DNA of 40,283 bases, taken from a virus. Where the stretch lies: IMG/VR virus record IMGVR_UViG_3300035698_017813, positions 1-40,283 of that record; one strand, given 5' to 3'. Positions 1-9,034 of the stretch are shown here, one piece after another (the first letter of the stretch is position 1; each line of letters starts with the position of its first letter). A program made the translations under genes and the position numbers. The notes beneath the pieces were generated by a model. The model was not told where the DNA came from. It saw nothing but the letters and a program-made list of their open reading frames with translations, and did no database searches.

Positions 1-1595
1 AGTATAACTACTGGCAGCATCTCCAAACCGGTTAGCTCTACGGATGTTGAAGTTACCAGTGGGTAAGTAGCATCGTCATAGATATATATCCAGTAGTAGA
101 ATTCACTACTCGGATCAGTATTGGCATGGTAAGTGGTCTGAAGAGCTCTTTCAGAAACAAATGTAGGTAGGTTAAATGAACTTGATAGCTGAGTTACTGC
201 TGGAACACCACTATTCGTATAGGTGTCATCAGTGATTGTCACAACACAGACCCGGGTTACATCAACCGTACCATCTGAGCTGTTGGATAGGTTTATCTGG
301 AACTTCTCAAAGTCATCCAAAAATATGTCAGCAGTAATGGGCACTATTATGTTCTGTACTTCACCAACGGTACCAGCGAAATTAAGTGTCCCAGCTACAC
401 CGTCGTAGTCAAGTCCTTCCATAGCTGTGATGTCAGCGAAGTCATAATCGACTGTGAATGCACCTGCAGCAGCGGTCTCTAACGTTACCGGTATCGTGGC
501 GTTGCCACTCTCTGTCACAGTAACATCATTCATTGTCAGCACTTTTCCATCATCATGCAGAATGGTGCAAGGCAACTGGCTCGGAGAAGACAGATCAACT
601 ACTTCATGTCCACCGGTAAGATTTGGCACATCGATAGAGATAACAAACCCTATACCAGACCCACTTGTCCTGTGGAATGCAGGAACTCCATCCACGAGTA
701 AAACAAAAAACTCGTCTGGGCCCACAACCGGATCGAGTATGTCTATCAACACATCAACCTCACTGGTACCAGCCAGCATATCTACTGATGCAATCTGAGT
801 GTAGTGAACACCATCAACTGCTGCACCTGTGTAAGACAGATTAATAGTCTGTGTCTGACCGGCTAACACCGGTCTGCTACTCTTTACTTTAAATGAGGCT
901 GTATCACCTGCAGTAGTGACACCTGATCCTACAATCCAGAAACTAGCCAGCTCACTATTCCTGAATATGTTGATGGTGTAGTCATCTGAATTAACGTTAT
1001 ATATGATGTTTCTGAGCTTGTAATCATCACGCACTACCAAGTAGGGATCTGTGAAAGTAAGTGTGTTGTTCCAGGGTTTATAGCCATGGGATGACTGAAG
1101 CGCATGCTTAAAGTGAAAGTCCTGCTTTACGAAACCACTAGAAGTTTTCAGTATGGTATTTGCAGGAGGAAACTCAGTATCAAGAGCTGAAGTTAGGGCA
1201 GTTGGATCAACCTCTGCTGCAGATATAGACATCTCAGGTAAACCATACACATACCCACCGGTAGGCTTATTACAGTAATTGTAATAGGCTCTTATTTCAG
1301 CTTTTGGTCTGAGGTACTCAATCATGTAGTTCGGGAAGAATGGGGTATCAGAATTGTGTGCAGCAAATATTGCTCTGATGATAGCTGCTTTCTGTACGTC
1401 TTCTGTATTTTGGTCGAACAGGGCTACAGAGCTCTTAGTAGTACTGACTATGGTTTCAGCCTCAATACCAATGAGTGAAAAACCCCACTCGACAGATGGT
1501 AGTATGACAAGATCCCATGCAGCTCCAAGGGCAGATCCAGGATCGGTAACTGCTACTTCTACTACTTCAACGATACCCTCGAGCACACCACTCAT
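1..1595 (-). CDS. Virion protein with Calx-beta domain(s), 3' end cut by window
   Basis: The frame is open from an ATG at 1593-1595 to the window edge, giving at least 531 residues with no stop. The ATG overlaps the stop of the gene before it (ATGA), which fixes the start. Residues about 355-458 form a clear Calx-beta domain: VTVTESGN at the start, the acidic DYDFADITAMEGLDYDG stretch and a closing TITDD. Residues about 228-305 look like a second, weaker copy. The first 200 residues match nothing I know. Calx-beta modules are Ca-binding beta sandwiches found in adhesins and some phage virion proteins. The position at the end of the capsid/tail operon suggests a structural or tail-associated protein; the exact role is unknown. 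Confidence 0.85.
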   Translation of the reverse strand, partial: MSGVLEGIVEVVEVAVTDPGSALGAAWDLVILPSVEWGFSLIGIEAETIVSTTKSSVALFDQNTEDVQKAAIIRAIFAAHNSDTPFFPNYMIEYLRPKAEIRAYYNYCNKPTGGYVYGLPEMSISAAEVDPTALTSALDTEFPPANTILKTSSGFVKQDFHFKHALQSSHGYKPWNNTLTFTDPYLVVRDDYKLRNIIYNVNSDDYTINIFRNSELASFWIVGSGVTTAGDTASFKVKSSRPVLAGQTQTINLSYTGAAVDGVHYTQIASVDMLAGTSEVDVLIDILDPVVGPDEFFVLLVDGVPAFHRTSGSGIGFVISIDVPNLTGGHEVVDLSSPSQLPCTILHDDGKVLTMNDVTVTESGNATIPVTLETAAAGAFTVDYDFADITAMEGLDYDGVAGTLNFAGTVGEVQNIIVPITADIFLDDFEKFQINLSNSSDGTVDVTRVCVVTITDDTYTNSGVPAVTQLSSSFNLPTFVSERALQTTYHANTDPSSEFYYWIYIYDDATYPLVTSTSVELTGLEMLPVVI

Positions 1596-2077
1596 ATGGT
1601 AATACCTCTCTTTTCGTACAGATCTGTAAACCGTTTCATGAGTTGGTCAACTCTAATAACCAGAGGTGCTTTACTGTTGGCCTGGTGACGTTTGATTGAA
1701 GTTATAGTGAGCATACTTTTGTACTCACCGATTTCTTTACCTGGGTGCAGTTGAAAATCAAGCTTGAAGACTTTGGGGTCTATCTTAGTGAACACGAAAT
1801 TGAATAATGCACCTAGCTTTAAAGGCTCCTGTTTGCCATAAAGCACAACTCCTTCAGCAAATAAGTCGCTCTTCTTTTTGTAATAAATATAGCTGCTGTC
1901 ATCTTCCAAGCTGAAAGCTGTACCGTCTAAAACACATTCAGTCATCCTGGCTACATACTCTTGATGCTCAGCTTCAGGGACTATTTCCTTAACTTTATCA
2001 AAATGAGGGGGTATATCATCGAAGGTGCACTGCTTGATACTTTGTGATTTACCAAACAGGTCATTGCTCATCATCAC
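1592..2077 (-). CDS. Unknown 161-residue protein downstream of the ketosynthase
   Basis: The start overlaps the ketosynthase stop and the stop overlaps the next ATG, so it is translationally coupled on both sides. No domain is recognised with certainty. The C-terminal half (residues about 90-161) alternates beta-like strands and ends in an LYEKRGI stretch, which resembles the last helix of GNAT acyl/acetyltransferases, but the acetyl-CoA loop is not evident. Because it follows an ACP and a ketosynthase, an acyl-transfer role is tempting but is only inference. ATGs at 2074 and 2071 are alternative starts. Confidence 0.75.
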   Translation of the reverse strand: MMMSNDLFGKSQSIKQCTFDDIPPHFDKVKEIVPEAEHQEYVARMTECVLDGTAFSLEDDSSYIYYKKKSDLFAEGVVLYGKQEPLKLGALFNFVFTKIDPKVFKLDFQLHPGKEIGEYKSMLTITSIKRHQANSKAPLVIRVDQLMKRFTDLYEKRGITI

Positions 2078-2904
2078 TTGGCTAACGTGAAAGAGCCGTA
2101 AACTCCTCCAACCCCATTGGCTGTAACTAATATGTTGCCCTTGATTTCTGGATCATCTAAAACCATACACGTTTCCACCAATGAGCTGACACCTTGTGTG
2201 TGCCCTATCATGCCCTTGTATTTTAAGTTAGCTCCTAGTTTAGCAAGTCCTGCTTCGGCTGTCTCATTGGAACTGGTGCCGGTTCCGTGCAGCTTTACGA
2301 AATCTACAGGGTAACCAGGGGAGAGTGAGCTTATCTGCTCTCGAGTAAAGTGGAATGGGTTCTTGTTGAATGCAAACTTCCATTTGGCATCAGTGATCTG
2401 TTTACCTTTGCGTAAGCGCATATAGACAAATGCGTCACCACAGGTGATATCGATTAAGAGCTCTTTAAATAGCCTCATAGTTTCCAGTGTGGTTCGTTCC
2501 CCACCGATGATTATGACTTCATCTACAACGCCTTCATACAGTAATCGATCGGCTTCATATATGGCTTGGATACCTGCTGCACAGGTTCCTGTCATGATGT
2601 CCACCTTGACCAGGTGTTCCAGATTCTTAAAAGTATATGCCCACTCGTGAGCCAGGTAGAAACTACCAGACTTTAGCATGGGGGATAGTTTGTCCATGTT
2701 GTTGGAGTTGAGACCCATCTCAGCTTGCGACGTAGTAAACCCATCTACATACAGAAATGCTGTAGGTCGAGTGAGTTCTATCTTTAAATCGGTGAGCTTT
2801 ATGAATTGTCGAGCTGAAGGCTTAGTCCTATCCAACTCCGGTATAGCTATATAACCTTCTCGAGCTTCGGTACCAGTGATGCTGTGATAATCGATAATCT
2901 GCAT
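2074..2904 (-). CDS. Compact beta-ketoacyl synthase-like protein
   Basis: This is a thiolase-fold condensing-enzyme homologue of 276 residues; ordinary FabB/FabF enzymes have about 410. The key motifs appear in the right order: TGTCAAG with nucleophile Cys108, KLHGTGT with His206, IGHTQG with His235, and a glycine-rich NGVGG at the C-terminus matching the GFGG loop. The Cys-His-His set typical of decarboxylating ketosynthases is therefore intact, which predicts C-C bond-forming activity on ACP-bound substrates. Much of the N-terminal half and cap region is missing. The gene starts inside the 3' end of the acyl carrier protein gene (58-base overlap), and its stop overlaps the next start. The natural partner is the ACP just upstream. 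The acyl product is unknown, as is whether the protein is an enzyme in the infected cell or part of the particle. Confidence 0.85.
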   Translation of the reverse strand: MQIIDYHSITGTEAREGYIAIPELDRTKPSARQFIKLTDLKIELTRPTAFLYVDGFTTSQAEMGLNSNNMDKLSPMLKSGSFYLAHEWAYTFKNLEHLVKVDIMTGTCAAGIQAIYEADRLLYEGVVDEVIIIGGERTTLETMRLFKELLIDITCGDAFVYMRLRKGKQITDAKWKFAFNKNPFHFTREQISSLSPGYPVDFVKLHGTGTSSNETAEAGLAKLGANLKYKGMIGHTQGVSSLVETCMVLDDPEIKGNILVTANGVGGVYGSFTLAK

Positions 2905-3134
2905 TTGTTTATTAACTCTTTCACGGTTAAATTTGGGATATCCAAAGCCTCTAGAGCCTCAGCACCTTCCATGTCTACTGGCAGAAACGGGTAATCGCTT
3001 TCCAGTGTGACGATAGTTAAAAGGGTGCCTAAGCTGTCGAGCTCACTATCTGTGAACATACTTTTTATGGTGACGGGAACTCCCTTCTCGTCATCAATAA
3101 TTTCATTCAATCTATCCAGTATTTCTTTTTTCAT
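2847..3134 (-). CDS. Acyl carrier protein-like
   Basis: The product is 95 residues long, close to the 75-90 of bacterial ACPs. It contains the DSL signature (Asp33-Ser34-Leu35); Ser34 would carry the 4'-phosphopantetheine arm. The protein is acidic and helical, and a tail of about 20 residues beyond the usual last helix is encoded in the region overlapping the ketosynthase start. The ATG overlaps the stop of the preceding structural gene (TAATG). It probably needs a host phosphopantetheinyl transferase, since none is visible in the window. Its role would be to hold acyl chains for the adjacent ketosynthase. A non-modified structural role is an alternative. Confidence 0.85.
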   Translation of the reverse strand: MKKEILDRLNEIIDDEKGVPVTIKSMFTDSELDSLGTLLTIVTLESDYPFLPVDMEGAEALEALDIPNLTVKELINKCRLSIITASLVPKLEKVI

Positions 3135-4069
3135 TATGGGGCTTCATCAAAAGATTCAGCATCAGGAGTTTCAGCAATAGTCTGTATCTCAACTCTGGCT
3201 TGTGGGAACACATCGAAGCTGTCTAGAATGTTCTGAGATAGCTGGTCGATCGCACCATCTTGAGTTGCTTCTGGGGTGTTTGCAACACCGGTAATTGACA
3301 GATTAACAGCATAGCCTTCGAGCATAAGCTTGAGAACTTTCTGCTTAGTGTCATTAGCAAAACCAAGAGTTTGAGCTTCCATGAGAGCTTCTTTTCTACC
3401 CAGTTGACCCAGGGTGTTAGCTTCCACGTTCCCTAACTCAGTTACAGTTTTCTGGATCATGTTGAGGTTCTGGCTGCCCTTCACTACAGTATCAGCTGCG
3501 GTGTTAGCAATTGTTGCGGTAGATTCCAGATCCTTTCTGACAGTACCGGCTACAACTTCCAGCTCTTGATCAGCTATAAGTGAAGTTTCTTGTAGTGTTT
3601 TATCATACTGGGCTTTAGCCATTCCTGCCGTAGGAGTAACTACGTTAGTAGCCTCAGTCAGCGTTTGCTGTTCTATAAGAATGGTCTCTTTCTGAGCCTT
3701 TAGGACATGTTTGTTATTTAGGATATTCTTACGGACTGTATCCGCCTCAGAGGAGATAACCTGCTCATAGGCTGATGCTGTTTGAGCTATCACTAGATCT
3801 GTTTTTTCCTCCTCCTGGATGATCTGTTTACTCAACAAATCAGCTTGTAGGCCAGAAGTCTGCTCTTGCATAATGAAGGCTAGGGAGTTCTGCAGTACTG
3901 CCTGCATAGATCCCAGGTACACCGTGGCGTAGTCAGAACCTGTCAATCTCCCTTCTTGAAATTGAGACTCTATTCGACGCTCTACAGCCTGGATTAGTAT
4001 ATCGAATGCACCGGTACCGATTGTATCATCAGTGCCGTTCGTTAAATCAGTAATTACAATATCGGTCAT
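3134..4069 (-). CDS. Coiled-coil virion protein, perhaps N4 gp54-like
   Basis: This is a 311-residue protein rich in Ala, Gln, Thr and Glu, with long helical heptad-like stretches over residues about 60-250 and few aromatics. Such alpha-helical proteins sit between the capsid and virion-polymerase genes in N4-like phages, where N4 gp54 is a minor structural protein of the head-tail region. Its equivalence to gp54 rests on position and composition only. The stop overlaps the start of the ACP gene. It is likely assembled in the particle as an internal or connector protein. Confidence 0.75.
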   Translation of the reverse strand: MTDIVITDLTNGTDDTIGTGAFDILIQAVERRIESQFQEGRLTGSDYATVYLGSMQAVLQNSLAFIMQEQTSGLQADLLSKQIIQEEEKTDLVIAQTASAYEQVISSEADTVRKNILNNKHVLKAQKETILIEQQTLTEATNVVTPTAGMAKAQYDKTLQETSLIADQELEVVAGTVRKDLESTATIANTAADTVVKGSQNLNMIQKTVTELGNVEANTLGQLGRKEALMEAQTLGFANDTKQKVLKLMLEGYAVNLSITGVANTPEATQDGAIDQLSQNILDSFDVFPQARVEIQTIAETPDAESFDEAP

Positions 4070-7400: not shown

Positions 7401-8040
7401 TTGCTGCGGATATTGAAGCAGGGTAGTAAGATTGAAACGCTATCTCACCAGAGCTACCCAAATCTCCAAAAGCCCATCCTGCTATATGGTAGATGTCCTG
7501 TGGAGATGGACTTACAGAATATTTTGTAGGAAGAGTAGGATTTTCATCATACGCAACCTGTACCCGATAGAACACGTCAAGAGTTTCAGTTGTACTTTGG
7601 TTACAAGGAGTAGACAGCCATACCGCCATTTGTGGGTTTACACCAGTAGTGACAGTGGATTTTGTTACCCCGATAGTGTTTATAACCTTATCCTCAGCAG
7701 GTGCTGCAAAACGTTGTGCTAACTCCATTGAGTGCACACCTGAATTCCAATAGGTAATAAGAGGGGATGTTATTCCTGAAATATTAGAACCGATTTCTAC
7801 AACATCTGCCCTATCTATTGTTGATAAAAGTGATAACTCACGGGTTTGCCTACCTGGGTTTGCCTCAGACACAAATATATTATTACCTATTGATTGAGAA
7901 CCTGAGTAGTTGCTCAAGTTACCAGCTACTAGAAACTGCAATAGGTAATCTTGAGCGTGGTTGGTACCTTCCCATCTACCGGTTTCTTCTCCAGTATTAA
8001 TGTCTCTTTTAATCGCTAAGTATTTGCCTTCAAATTTCAT
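4414..8040 (-). CDS. Large tail spike or fibre-like protein
   Basis: At 1208 residues this is the largest gene in the window. It is rich in Thr, Ser, Gly, Asn and aromatics, has low Lys, and is beta-strand throughout, as in receptor-binding appendages. An Asp-box (BNR) motif, YYSDDDGANW, occurs at residues 531-540, preceded by strand repeats typical of a beta-propeller. The middle of the protein may therefore be a sialidase-like propeller; only one clear Asp-box was found. The last ~200 residues resemble a carbohydrate-binding beta sandwich. The N-terminus (MKFEGKYLAI) probably attaches to the particle. Host recognition is the most likely role. Confidence 0.8.
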   Translation of the reverse strand: MKFEGKYLAIKRDINTGEETGRWEGTNHAQDYLLQFLVAGNLSNYSGSQSIGNNIFVSEANPGRQTRELSLLSTIDRADVVEIGSNISGITSPLITYWNSGVHSMELAQRFAAPAEDKVINTIGVTKSTVTTGVNPQMAVWLSTPCNQSTTETLDVFYRVQVAYDENPTLPTKYSVSPSPQDIYHIAGWAFGDLGSSGEIAFQSYYPASISAAKFNPRGHKRCNFAQTPGYGTVAATNTSAPSARVAADFKNGYKWVVGVNSTSIGRIIHTMFPYSGYFATNTNHNKFGVEILPDILPSERVQNIFGHSNNATSPFFATDTAQTGLGTLSIDGSSWTDPDIAKYLRVTIDTTGGVGVGTYSFQYRPIIGFKGPNHSNQWETLFGFSSDNGPVYMEGFEWDGGKLTDHTLGLFGRYKKATMHVIDSDTVLGLQPDEICIASVSNQSGIRIANDTTPLMAISNAGDFVVSSAGVIWVSDRVVGLFSLSADRLSVGIINDTIPGLTGVTGCYGVSLGLAGRLWAFFDGTTPGLYYSDDDGANWSITSFNHVDVTADPTRVKALEADPTHVDNHVAVVVAELVDTYNHLLYALWYDDSAVTAAAVKSADIHHITNQTVYGATADTHMNNTGMYANEENSLTYCNLFKCSPTTSRWFIVGRKNTRTAVLGHPYYYDFNTATATVVSNDRNQALNPRTATFLLNSLGEEVLQYQTGPGQDWNHVDPQEVSGVSTIQIKMSDLSVDGWTSYNIGGRLYSSIQALGNGMGIGFFSNVTNDTDLNDTMLGAMVHISLYPEYTNDGGALASESRFHTFPTYGWDGGAWVKNHVGRKTIHAGSEVLIDGLEISFDDNAGADTFESTDYYTTTICDGIQQDGAVSFDIDWTIYFITATKDTSSVVLSSTPVLPPIITAALYNISGTSTDLQDLTANRPYISSLYQQWASNTSGPQDVWDKGQRSLTPAIFANTPSWPDLSRINTIDGMDGIQGYFKLDPYMNNNSSRGQMSGGFVPLATIGSALTTLDYTVGVVMDSMITPDRAFQIEVVVNGAIVATILDVIVEAGANQTDHIYGYIMKDGTVIVDSVLRTTGRTNLYTSAPGAVPIVDYYMQWLYGGGDRVGWEYTYAYSMKNPIDYYAVVGDGGTTGPYRNAFRKLDGTNFKLQIDGVEATRIGDEDTGTVLVSGEYSLNPYQGILRYAAADATKTLTIQAISLTYE

Positions 8041-8053
8041 GGTCTAAATGCCT

Positions 8054-9034
8054 TTAAAGTGGTGTTCCTATACCGGAGGGGTTAATCCGTACATAGCCGC
8101 TAATTGTACTTGTAGCTCCCCCTATTTTGTTCAACGTAGTAAGTTGTCCAGGATCATTGGCAACTATGTGAGTATACCGTATAAATGCTGAAATCTGTCC
8201 TACAGTACCACCTACATAATAGTCAGATGGTGTTGGTCTTCGTGTGATGTTGGAGAACCTAACAAGATTAGATAATGCTGCTGTTGTTCCCCCTTGTGGT
8301 ACTACATCATTGGTAACCTTATTGCTGCTGGTACCTTCTAAAATCCGATTAACAACACTATCAGAGTATATCTGGTTAATTGTTGGCACCCCATAAATAC
8401 ACCGGAAAATATAGTAACCAGGAGGCAGTTTATAGGTAGTAGGAAAAGGGTCATCATACAATGTATCTATGAGAACTAGATCTTCTTCAATATAGCCTGA
8501 TACCTCATATATCTCTATCGAAGTTATATCACCTGCAAAAGTATCAGACTGATCTGGAACTGTGTAGTAAACCTCAGCACCAACCGAAAATTGTACTTCG
8601 GGGGTGATAGTCCCATCTAACGAAGGTGTGATTACAATAACCTGCTTATCCGTAAATAAGATAGTGTTTATATCATCATATTTTCTAGGGGCAGCACCAC
8701 CAAACCTTTTAAGATTAGTAGTTGGTGTGTGGTACACATAAGTATCATGGTACTTTTCTGTATTAAGACCCCTATCTACATAGTGCCTAAACACTTTATC
8801 TGTGTTCTCAGAATATGTGTAAACTTTTGTGAAGGCATCTAAGTCTGTGATTATTACAGGCTTACCTTTAATCTGCTCATAGTCATCGACTAGTGAAACA
8901 TTTAACAGGTTGGTGTAGTCGTTTAATTTGTAGGGCAAGTAGATAAACATGCCCGGGCATATTATGTACTGATCTTCGGTTTCCAACGGGCATATGCTGC
9001 GACGTTTGTTGGATTGAACAACATGGAAAGGCAT
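8054..9034 (-). CDS. Hypothetical structural protein, 326 residues
   Basis: The gene lies between the spike-like gene and the 230-residue beta protein, separated by only a few bases. The product is beta-rich with many Tyr, Thr and Ile residues and no signal peptide. Residues about 160-230 (PGYYIFRCIYG region) look like an Ig/FnIII-type sandwich. No family is recognised. Position in the late operon between capsid and spike genes suggests a tail or appendage component. Confidence 0.75.
   Translation of the reverse strand: MPFHVVQSNKRRSICPLETEDQYIICPGMFIYLPYKLNDYTNLLNVSLVDDYEQIKGKPVIITDLDAFTKVYTYSENTDKVFRHYVDRGLNTEKYHDTYVYHTPTTNLKRFGGAAPRKYDDINTILFTDKQVIVITPSLDGTITPEVQFSVGAEVYYTVPDQSDTFAGDITSIEIYEVSGYIEEDLVLIDTLYDDPFPTTYKLPPGYYIFRCIYGVPTINQIYSDSVVNRILEGTSSNKVTNDVVPQGGTTAALSNLVRFSNITRRPTPSDYYVGGTVGQISAFIRYTHIVANDPGQLTTLNKIGGATSTISGYVRINPSGIGTPL

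Follow-up and report, generated by a model that had tools for sequence, protein, structure and literature searches.

Why should a tailed phage keep a condensing enzyme of the fatty-acid type among the genes for its virion? In the literature searched, such enzymes have so far not been tied to virion building. The question is raised by a 40-kb fragment of an N4-type phage (hereafter the window, meaning the whole stretch of DNA analysed), whose proteins match PHROG families for the portal, the major head protein, the tape measure, the terminase large subunit and a holin, and whose major head protein shares 67% identity with its counterpart in Alteromonas phage V19. The original prediction described, in a late virion block, overlapping genes for an acyl carrier protein (ACP) with a DSL serine, Ser34, and for a 276-residue ketosynthase (KS) with Cys108, His206 and His235. 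Both reading frames are indeed found on the minus strand with an overlap of 58 nt, and the pair directly follows a homologue of N4 gp54 in a window bearing N4-type PHROGs, consistent with the location that had been proposed.

Position of the cassette

The relevant genes lie head to tail on the minus strand, in the following order:

3134..4069, minus strand: homologue of N4 gp54 (tail tube), the 5' neighbour of the cassette (phrog_2050, E 2e-32; BLASTP to N4 gp54, E 1e-11)
2847..3134, minus strand: ACP, 95 aa (family profile against the PDB, hhalign, alignment)
2074..2904, minus strand: KS, 276 aa, from a short clade of phage KS (AlphaFold, Foldseek, profiles, hhalign)
1592..2077, minus strand: GNAT-fold protein, 161 aa, proposed acyl-ACP-dependent acyltransferase (AlphaFold, Foldseek, co-occurrence)
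3..1595, minus strand: homologue of N4 gp53 (tail plug), N-terminal 531 aa, clipped by the window end (local gp53 profile, E 3e-150; Calx-beta)

Successive genes in this row overlap by 1, 58, 4 and 4 nt. Since the overlaps of the cassette and its flanks all lie within 1-58 nt, translation is probably coupled. The upstream neighbour shares phrog_2050 with N4 gp54 itself, and the downstream protein matches the gp53 profile; phrog_2220 is matched by N4 gp53 and by the gp53 homologues of three further loci (L001, L004 and L007). Thus the cassette sits exactly between the gp54 and gp53 homologues, two genes that in phage N4 are directly adjacent, with no gene between them. The N4 tail tube is formed by gp54; gp53 is its plug, which corks the tube with a hydrophobic knot (PMC12633501).

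This position bears on the chief rival to a virion role, which is auxiliary metabolism. The ACP and KS would then feed host fatty-acid synthesis late in infection, affecting chain length, unsaturation or the lipid supply for lysis, and the GNAT-fold protein would be a neighbour or a regulator. Phage ACPs have been so read in print, for roseobacter prophages (PMC8224337) and for phage R22Y (PMC11705849). Such a role is harder to reconcile with N4-type genes that sit within the virion operon, flanked by those for the tail tube and the tail plug, and with the window reading frames scanned, among which no fatty-acid synthesis (FAS) or phosphopantetheinyl transferase family was found. We regard it as rather unlikely.

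Two other features of the region were observed. Calx-beta domains (PF03160) occur within gp53 homologues, both in the window (3-1595, minus strand; E 6e-10) and in L001 (9316-12087; E 1e-13). At 27839-28282 (minus strand) the window encodes a 147-aa protein that matches Pfam RepL (PF05732, E 2e-19), a Firmicute plasmid replication initiator family that is unexpected in an N4-type phage.

Carrier protein and ketosynthase

Taken individually, neither the ACP nor the KS of the window reaches the Pfam cut-offs, so their assignment rests on family profiles and structure. The residues at issue are encoded as follows:

3033..3035, minus strand: ACP Ser34 codon, predicted phosphopantetheine attachment site (sequence, alignment)
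2581..2583, minus strand: KS Cys108 codon, equivalent to the FabF nucleophile Cys163 (alignment with E. coli FabF)
2287..2289, minus strand: KS His206 codon, equivalent to FabF His303 (FabF alignment)
2215..2217, minus strand: KS Lys230 codon, equivalent to FabF Lys335 (FabF alignment)
2200..2202, minus strand: KS His235 codon, equivalent to FabF His340 (FabF alignment)
2173..2175, minus strand: KS Glu244 codon, equivalent to FabF Glu349 (FabF alignment)

For the carrier protein, the family profile retrieved acyl carrier proteins from the PDB at E 3e-7, and hhalign placed its DSL on the DSL of E. coli AcpP, in line with the original assignment. D33-S34 is invariant in 27 aligned relatives, and [DE]S[LFMI] is present in 112 of 113 distinct ACP hits. 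The protein therefore has both the family similarity and the D-S-[LF] site of an ACP. It shares with AcpP the D-S-L motif, the predicted phosphopantetheine serine and its size, but differs in a short insert after helix II, a C-terminal tail, a weak Pfam score and its pairing with a phage KS and GNAT protein. Each of the 114 distinct phage KS for which 320 nt or more of upstream sequence is available is directly preceded by an ACP gene, a count that leaves out L304, from a Sulfurospirillum contig. The KS reading frames without an upstream ACP are L304 and six from Neisseria and Muribaculaceae contigs. L304 (7767-8669, on a contig of a metagenome-assembled genome) is a short-clade KS beside an endolysin-type gene and large virion-like reading frames. 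In two Neisseria genomes (L305 and L306, both at about 7668-8732), 354-aa ketosynthase-like reading frames were seen that are weak relatives.

For the KS, a profile of 39 sequences, with relatives taken from IMG/VR, matched FabF/KAS II chains in the PDB at E 4e-28; a profile restricted to the short N4-type members reached E 1e-8, and hhalign against E. coli FabF gave 5e-18. The AlphaFold model (pLDDT 91.2, pTM 0.89) has a confident ketosynthase fold, as the original prediction had expected of a structure-based search: the PDB matches listed by Foldseek were ketosynthases, with a best E of 6e-11 and a TMq of about 0.65. C108, H206, K230, H235 and E244 align with FabF C163, H303, K335, H340 and E349, and the GVGG loop aligns with FabF GFGG. 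The phage KS thus has in common with 3-oxoacyl-ACP synthases of the FabF/FabB type (KAS I/II) the thiolase fold, the Cys-His-His set, a Lys five residues before the second His, a Glu nine residues after it, and a GxGG loop close to the C-terminus, all of the catalytic residues being at FabF spacing.

It departs from these enzymes in length and in setting. A full-length KAS I/II has about 400 aa with dimer-forming regions (FabF, 412 aa), whereas the phage KS has 276 aa, its loops and N-terminal excursions are stripped, and its N-terminal region and the segments between the halves are shortened. It also falls in phage clades and is found in an operon with an ACP and a GNAT protein, with no FabD/G/Z/H. 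We therefore class it as a short relative of KAS I/II and not as FabF itself. In the tree, which includes only two host references, a long KS set separates from the short phage clade. By predicted secondary structure both thiolase halves are present with short loops, and together with the full C, H, K, H, E set this favors the minimal condensing core suggested earlier; we read the model as a pared-down but complete core and not as a fragment. Enzymologists may take an interest in such a short KS, which would be a naturally occurring minimal ketosynthase.

Conservation points the same way. Among 124 distinct KS reading frames (117 from phages, L304 and six from bacterial contigs), the catalytic C, H, K and H are invariant, and 123 of them also have the E, the remaining one showing a gap there, although identity between KS clades falls to about 25%. 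Taken together, the profiles, the structure and the invariant residues rule out chance reading frames or mis-called homology for the ACP and KS. Intact catalytic residues would also suit a supply of host fatty-acid synthesis.

They speak against a non-catalytic role, in which the ACP, KS and GNAT folds would assist tail-plug assembly or serve as minor virion components of the plug. These are small proteins encoded between structural genes, and some ACPs are structural elsewhere; the ACPs of mitochondrial complex I and the ribosome were among our PDB hits. However, lost catalysis would relax the catalytic residues of the KS and the serine of the ACP, and these are kept, the serine in nearly all members, across clades about 25% identical. 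We consider a purely structural role very doubtful.

The GNAT-fold protein

The original prediction named the ACP and KS only. To these must be added the adjacent 161-aa protein, which in N4-type phages constantly accompanies the ACP, whereas the KS is optional, as described in the next section. The AlphaFold model of this protein, run on ten N4-type relatives, is confident (pLDDT 91.9, pTM 0.86), and its elements run beta-alpha-alpha-beta-beta-beta-alpha-beta-alpha-beta. The best Foldseek matches are GNAT acetyltransferases, Ard1 among them (E 4e-4, probability 1.00), which places the protein in the GNAT superfamily by fold. No sequence match of note was found in either the PDB or Pfam. The R/Q-x-x-G-x-G/A loop that binds the CoA pyrophosphate after strand 4 is not recognisable in window residues 79-91 (LYGKQEPLKLGAL) or in a 17-sequence alignment. 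His25 and Asp100 are mostly conserved, Asp100 lying after the third helix by predicted topology.

A GNAT fold with a dedicated ACP has precedents. RtxC/HlyC enzymes have the fold without its CoA elements and acylate a membrane-active protein from acyl-ACP, and in the acyl-ACP-using ApxIC the CoA pyrophosphate loop is likewise not recognisable (PMC8339906). CdiC attaches 3-hydroxydecanoate to an effector that crosses the envelope, at its receptor-binding domain (PMC8510554). The phage protein resembles HlyC/ApxC and CdiC in having a GNAT fold without a recognisable CoA loop, in acyl-ACP as its proposed donor, and in a gene directly before that of a large envelope- or membrane-active protein. 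Unlike them, it has its own ACP and KS and lies in a phage virion operon, it shows no sequence similarity to them, and their His/Asp dyad was not identified in it by alignment and predicted topology.

Two families were considered for the protein and set aside. For the RTX-activating acyltransferases (RtxC/HlyC/CdiC), ten members gave no Pfam match at E<=1 and there was no PDB sequence match. For LuxI-type autoinducer synthases, the same ten members gave no Pfam match at E<=1, and none appeared among the 50 Foldseek matches listed.

Among GNAT-fold enzymes, those of the LuxI and FeeM types use acyl-ACP. The three proteins might accordingly make an N-acyl compound, such as a 3-oxoacyl-homoserine lactone or an N-acyl amino acid, or acylate a lipid of the cell envelope, e.g. 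as a barrier to superinfection. A GNAT fold with its own ACP would fit such a product, and a KS without a reductase would naturally yield 3-oxoacyl-ACP. We nevertheless judge a small molecule or lipid to be an improbable product, given the lack of Pfam matches to autoinducer synthases or RTX-C in the ten members, the predominance of N-acetyltransferases among the Foldseek matches listed, and the late virion-gene position.

Co-occurrence and exchange in N4-type phages

Of the N4-type loci readable on both flanks, 18 distinct ones carry both the ACP and the GNAT protein and 3, N4 included, carry neither; no GNAT gene was found without an ACP. A KS is present in 12 of the 18 and missing from 6, the cultured Alteromonas phages V19 and R22Y being among the latter. 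A 124-kb contig (L016) has the ACP and KS and gave no GNAT hit. A GNAT-family scan with a 4-sequence profile gave a single locus, and the conserved part of gp53, used because the full profile is too variable for scanning, gave one new N4-type locus (L314). In N4-type phages, then, the ACP has a constant companion in the GNAT protein, and a KS may or may not be inserted between the two. The primary association of the ACP is with the GNAT protein. For auxiliary metabolism a FAS enzyme would be the more natural constant partner.

Two closely related loci, L195 and L007, differ in the cassette. Their flanks are 90-92% identical in DNA, and gp54 and gp53 are 99% and 96% identical in amino acids, whereas the ACP is 52% and the GNAT protein 65% identical, and a KS is present in L007 only. 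This divergence of the cassette alone, along with the co-occurrence, indicates that the three genes behave as one exchangeable module, and a swap as a block between near-identical phages is not what auxiliary metabolism would lead one to expect. The exchange is at the same site (L195 4148-4883, ACP and GNAT; L007 6079-7630, ACP, KS and GNAT), and the local hyper-divergence is of a kind usual for receptor-binding genes.

Part of this locus has been described before. The ACP of Alteromonas phage R22Y (Schitoviridae) was reported as an auxiliary metabolic gene of host fatty-acid metabolism (PMC11705849). It is homologous to the window ACP, lies at the same locus and is followed by a homologous GNAT gene; the locus has no KS, and the available part of that report reads the ACP as host metabolism, with no mention of the GNAT partner or of the position between gp54 and gp53. 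A fabG-acpP-fabF trio has been listed in roseobacter prophages (PMC8224337). It too combines an ACP and a KS in phage-like regions, but with fabG present, in host gene order and annotated as host-type enzymes. The earlier view that acyl-chain building is no known part of N4-type virion biology thus needs qualifying for the ACP, already reported in Schitoviridae. We found no description in the open-licence literature of a phage ketosynthase in a virion block, of virion acylation or of an ACP-KS-GNAT cassette.

A possible route of acyl transfer

That the genes form a module is well supported; its target we infer. Our preferred reading, tentative but quite possible, is that the ACP carries a chain, the KS extends it, and the GNAT protein passes it on to a protein of the virion, the neighbouring tail plug being the most likely one. 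Of the functions offered by the original prediction, modification of a virion protein by an acyl chain would seem to fit the new anatomy best.

Under the preferred reading, host holo-ACP synthase would arm the phage ACP at Ser34 with phosphopantetheine, and this arm would be loaded with a host-made acyl or malonyl group. The KS, via Cys108, would add one two-carbon unit or set the chain length. Because the cassette has no reductase, the product would be a 3-oxoacyl chain or a chain finished by host FabG/FabZ/FabI. The GNAT-fold protein would then move the chain from the ACP onto a virion protein encoded next to it. The likeliest acceptor would be the gp53-type tail plug, at a Gly/Ser/Ala N-terminus or a lysine, and a lipid on the plug could assist the tail tip in engaging or breaching the outer membrane. 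Where only the ACP and GNAT protein are present, host acyl chains would be used unaltered; KS-bearing phages would use a tailored chain.

Acceptor residues were also sought by comparison. No lysine conserved solely in cassette carriers was found in gp53 or gp54. An N-terminal Gly/Ser is not a discriminating mark of N4-type gp53, since gp53 from loci that lack the cassette can likewise begin with M[GSA] (N4 MGL, L163 MAW, L181 MAF). The cultured phages V19 and R22Y, which carry the ACP and GNAT half of the cassette, make the question testable now.

ACP-ketosynthase pairs in other lineages

The ACP-KS pair is not confined to this phage: besides N4-type phages it occurs in an unrelated P22/Sf6-type group, so that two unrelated podophage lineages carry it, and in a replication-region context. 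In P22/Sf6-type phages (e.g. MW202545), KS of a long clade (about 370 aa) have an upstream ACP and lie between the tail (gp10-like) gene block and large ejection-type genes. No GNAT gene is detectable at this P22-type locus. Its third gene (A9) encodes 143-166 aa in most cases; as a candidate second acyltransferase it was discarded, since it does not resemble the GNAT profile (hhalign probability 0.3) and is also found where ACP-KS is missing. In the P22-type group the downstream large protein starts M[GSACP][AGS][VIAL][VIASF] in 9 of 9 cases with ACP-KS and in 3 of 34 without (Fisher 4e-7, for a motif picked post hoc and a test that ignores kinship). This start resembles the N-termini of cassette-bearing gp53.

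In a further context (L046, L061, L062, L064, L065 and L103), ACP-KS lies between an SF2 helicase gene and a gene for an HTH-like protein of ~105 aa, in a replication-type region. The KS of this subclade group with the long KS in the tree, and no virion genes were seen nearby on those contigs. A third gene and a GNAT gene, sought in nine and eleven records, were found in none of the replication-context contigs, which are mostly short fragments. An ACP-KS pair away from virion genes means that a virion target is not the whole story for every such pair. This subclade favors auxiliary metabolism, and together with the P22-type group, with its lack of a detectable GNAT gene, it keeps an effect on host lipids alive as an explanation. 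Even if only host lipids change, the recurrence of ACP-KS in two unrelated podophage lineages would point to a strong and unrecognised selective use.

Returning to virion acylation, we can put it in a more general form, which we hold with greater reserve: tailed phages may possess a protein-lipidation system of their own, consisting of an ACP, a chain-tailoring minimal KS and an ACP-dependent GNAT protein that acylates the tail plug or an ejected protein. This would provide a short-tailed phage with a lipid anchor as it crosses the outer membrane, and cassette swaps would alter the chemistry. We know of no previous covalent lipidation system of tailed phages. If the cassette does lipidate a tail or ejection protein, it would, as far as we know, be the first, and would be relevant to the way in which short-tailed phages penetrate the outer membrane.

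The ejection-type gene block of MW202545 contains, at L003 15792-18953, two consecutive large proteins with long cysteine-rich stretches (e.g. repeated CSCC).
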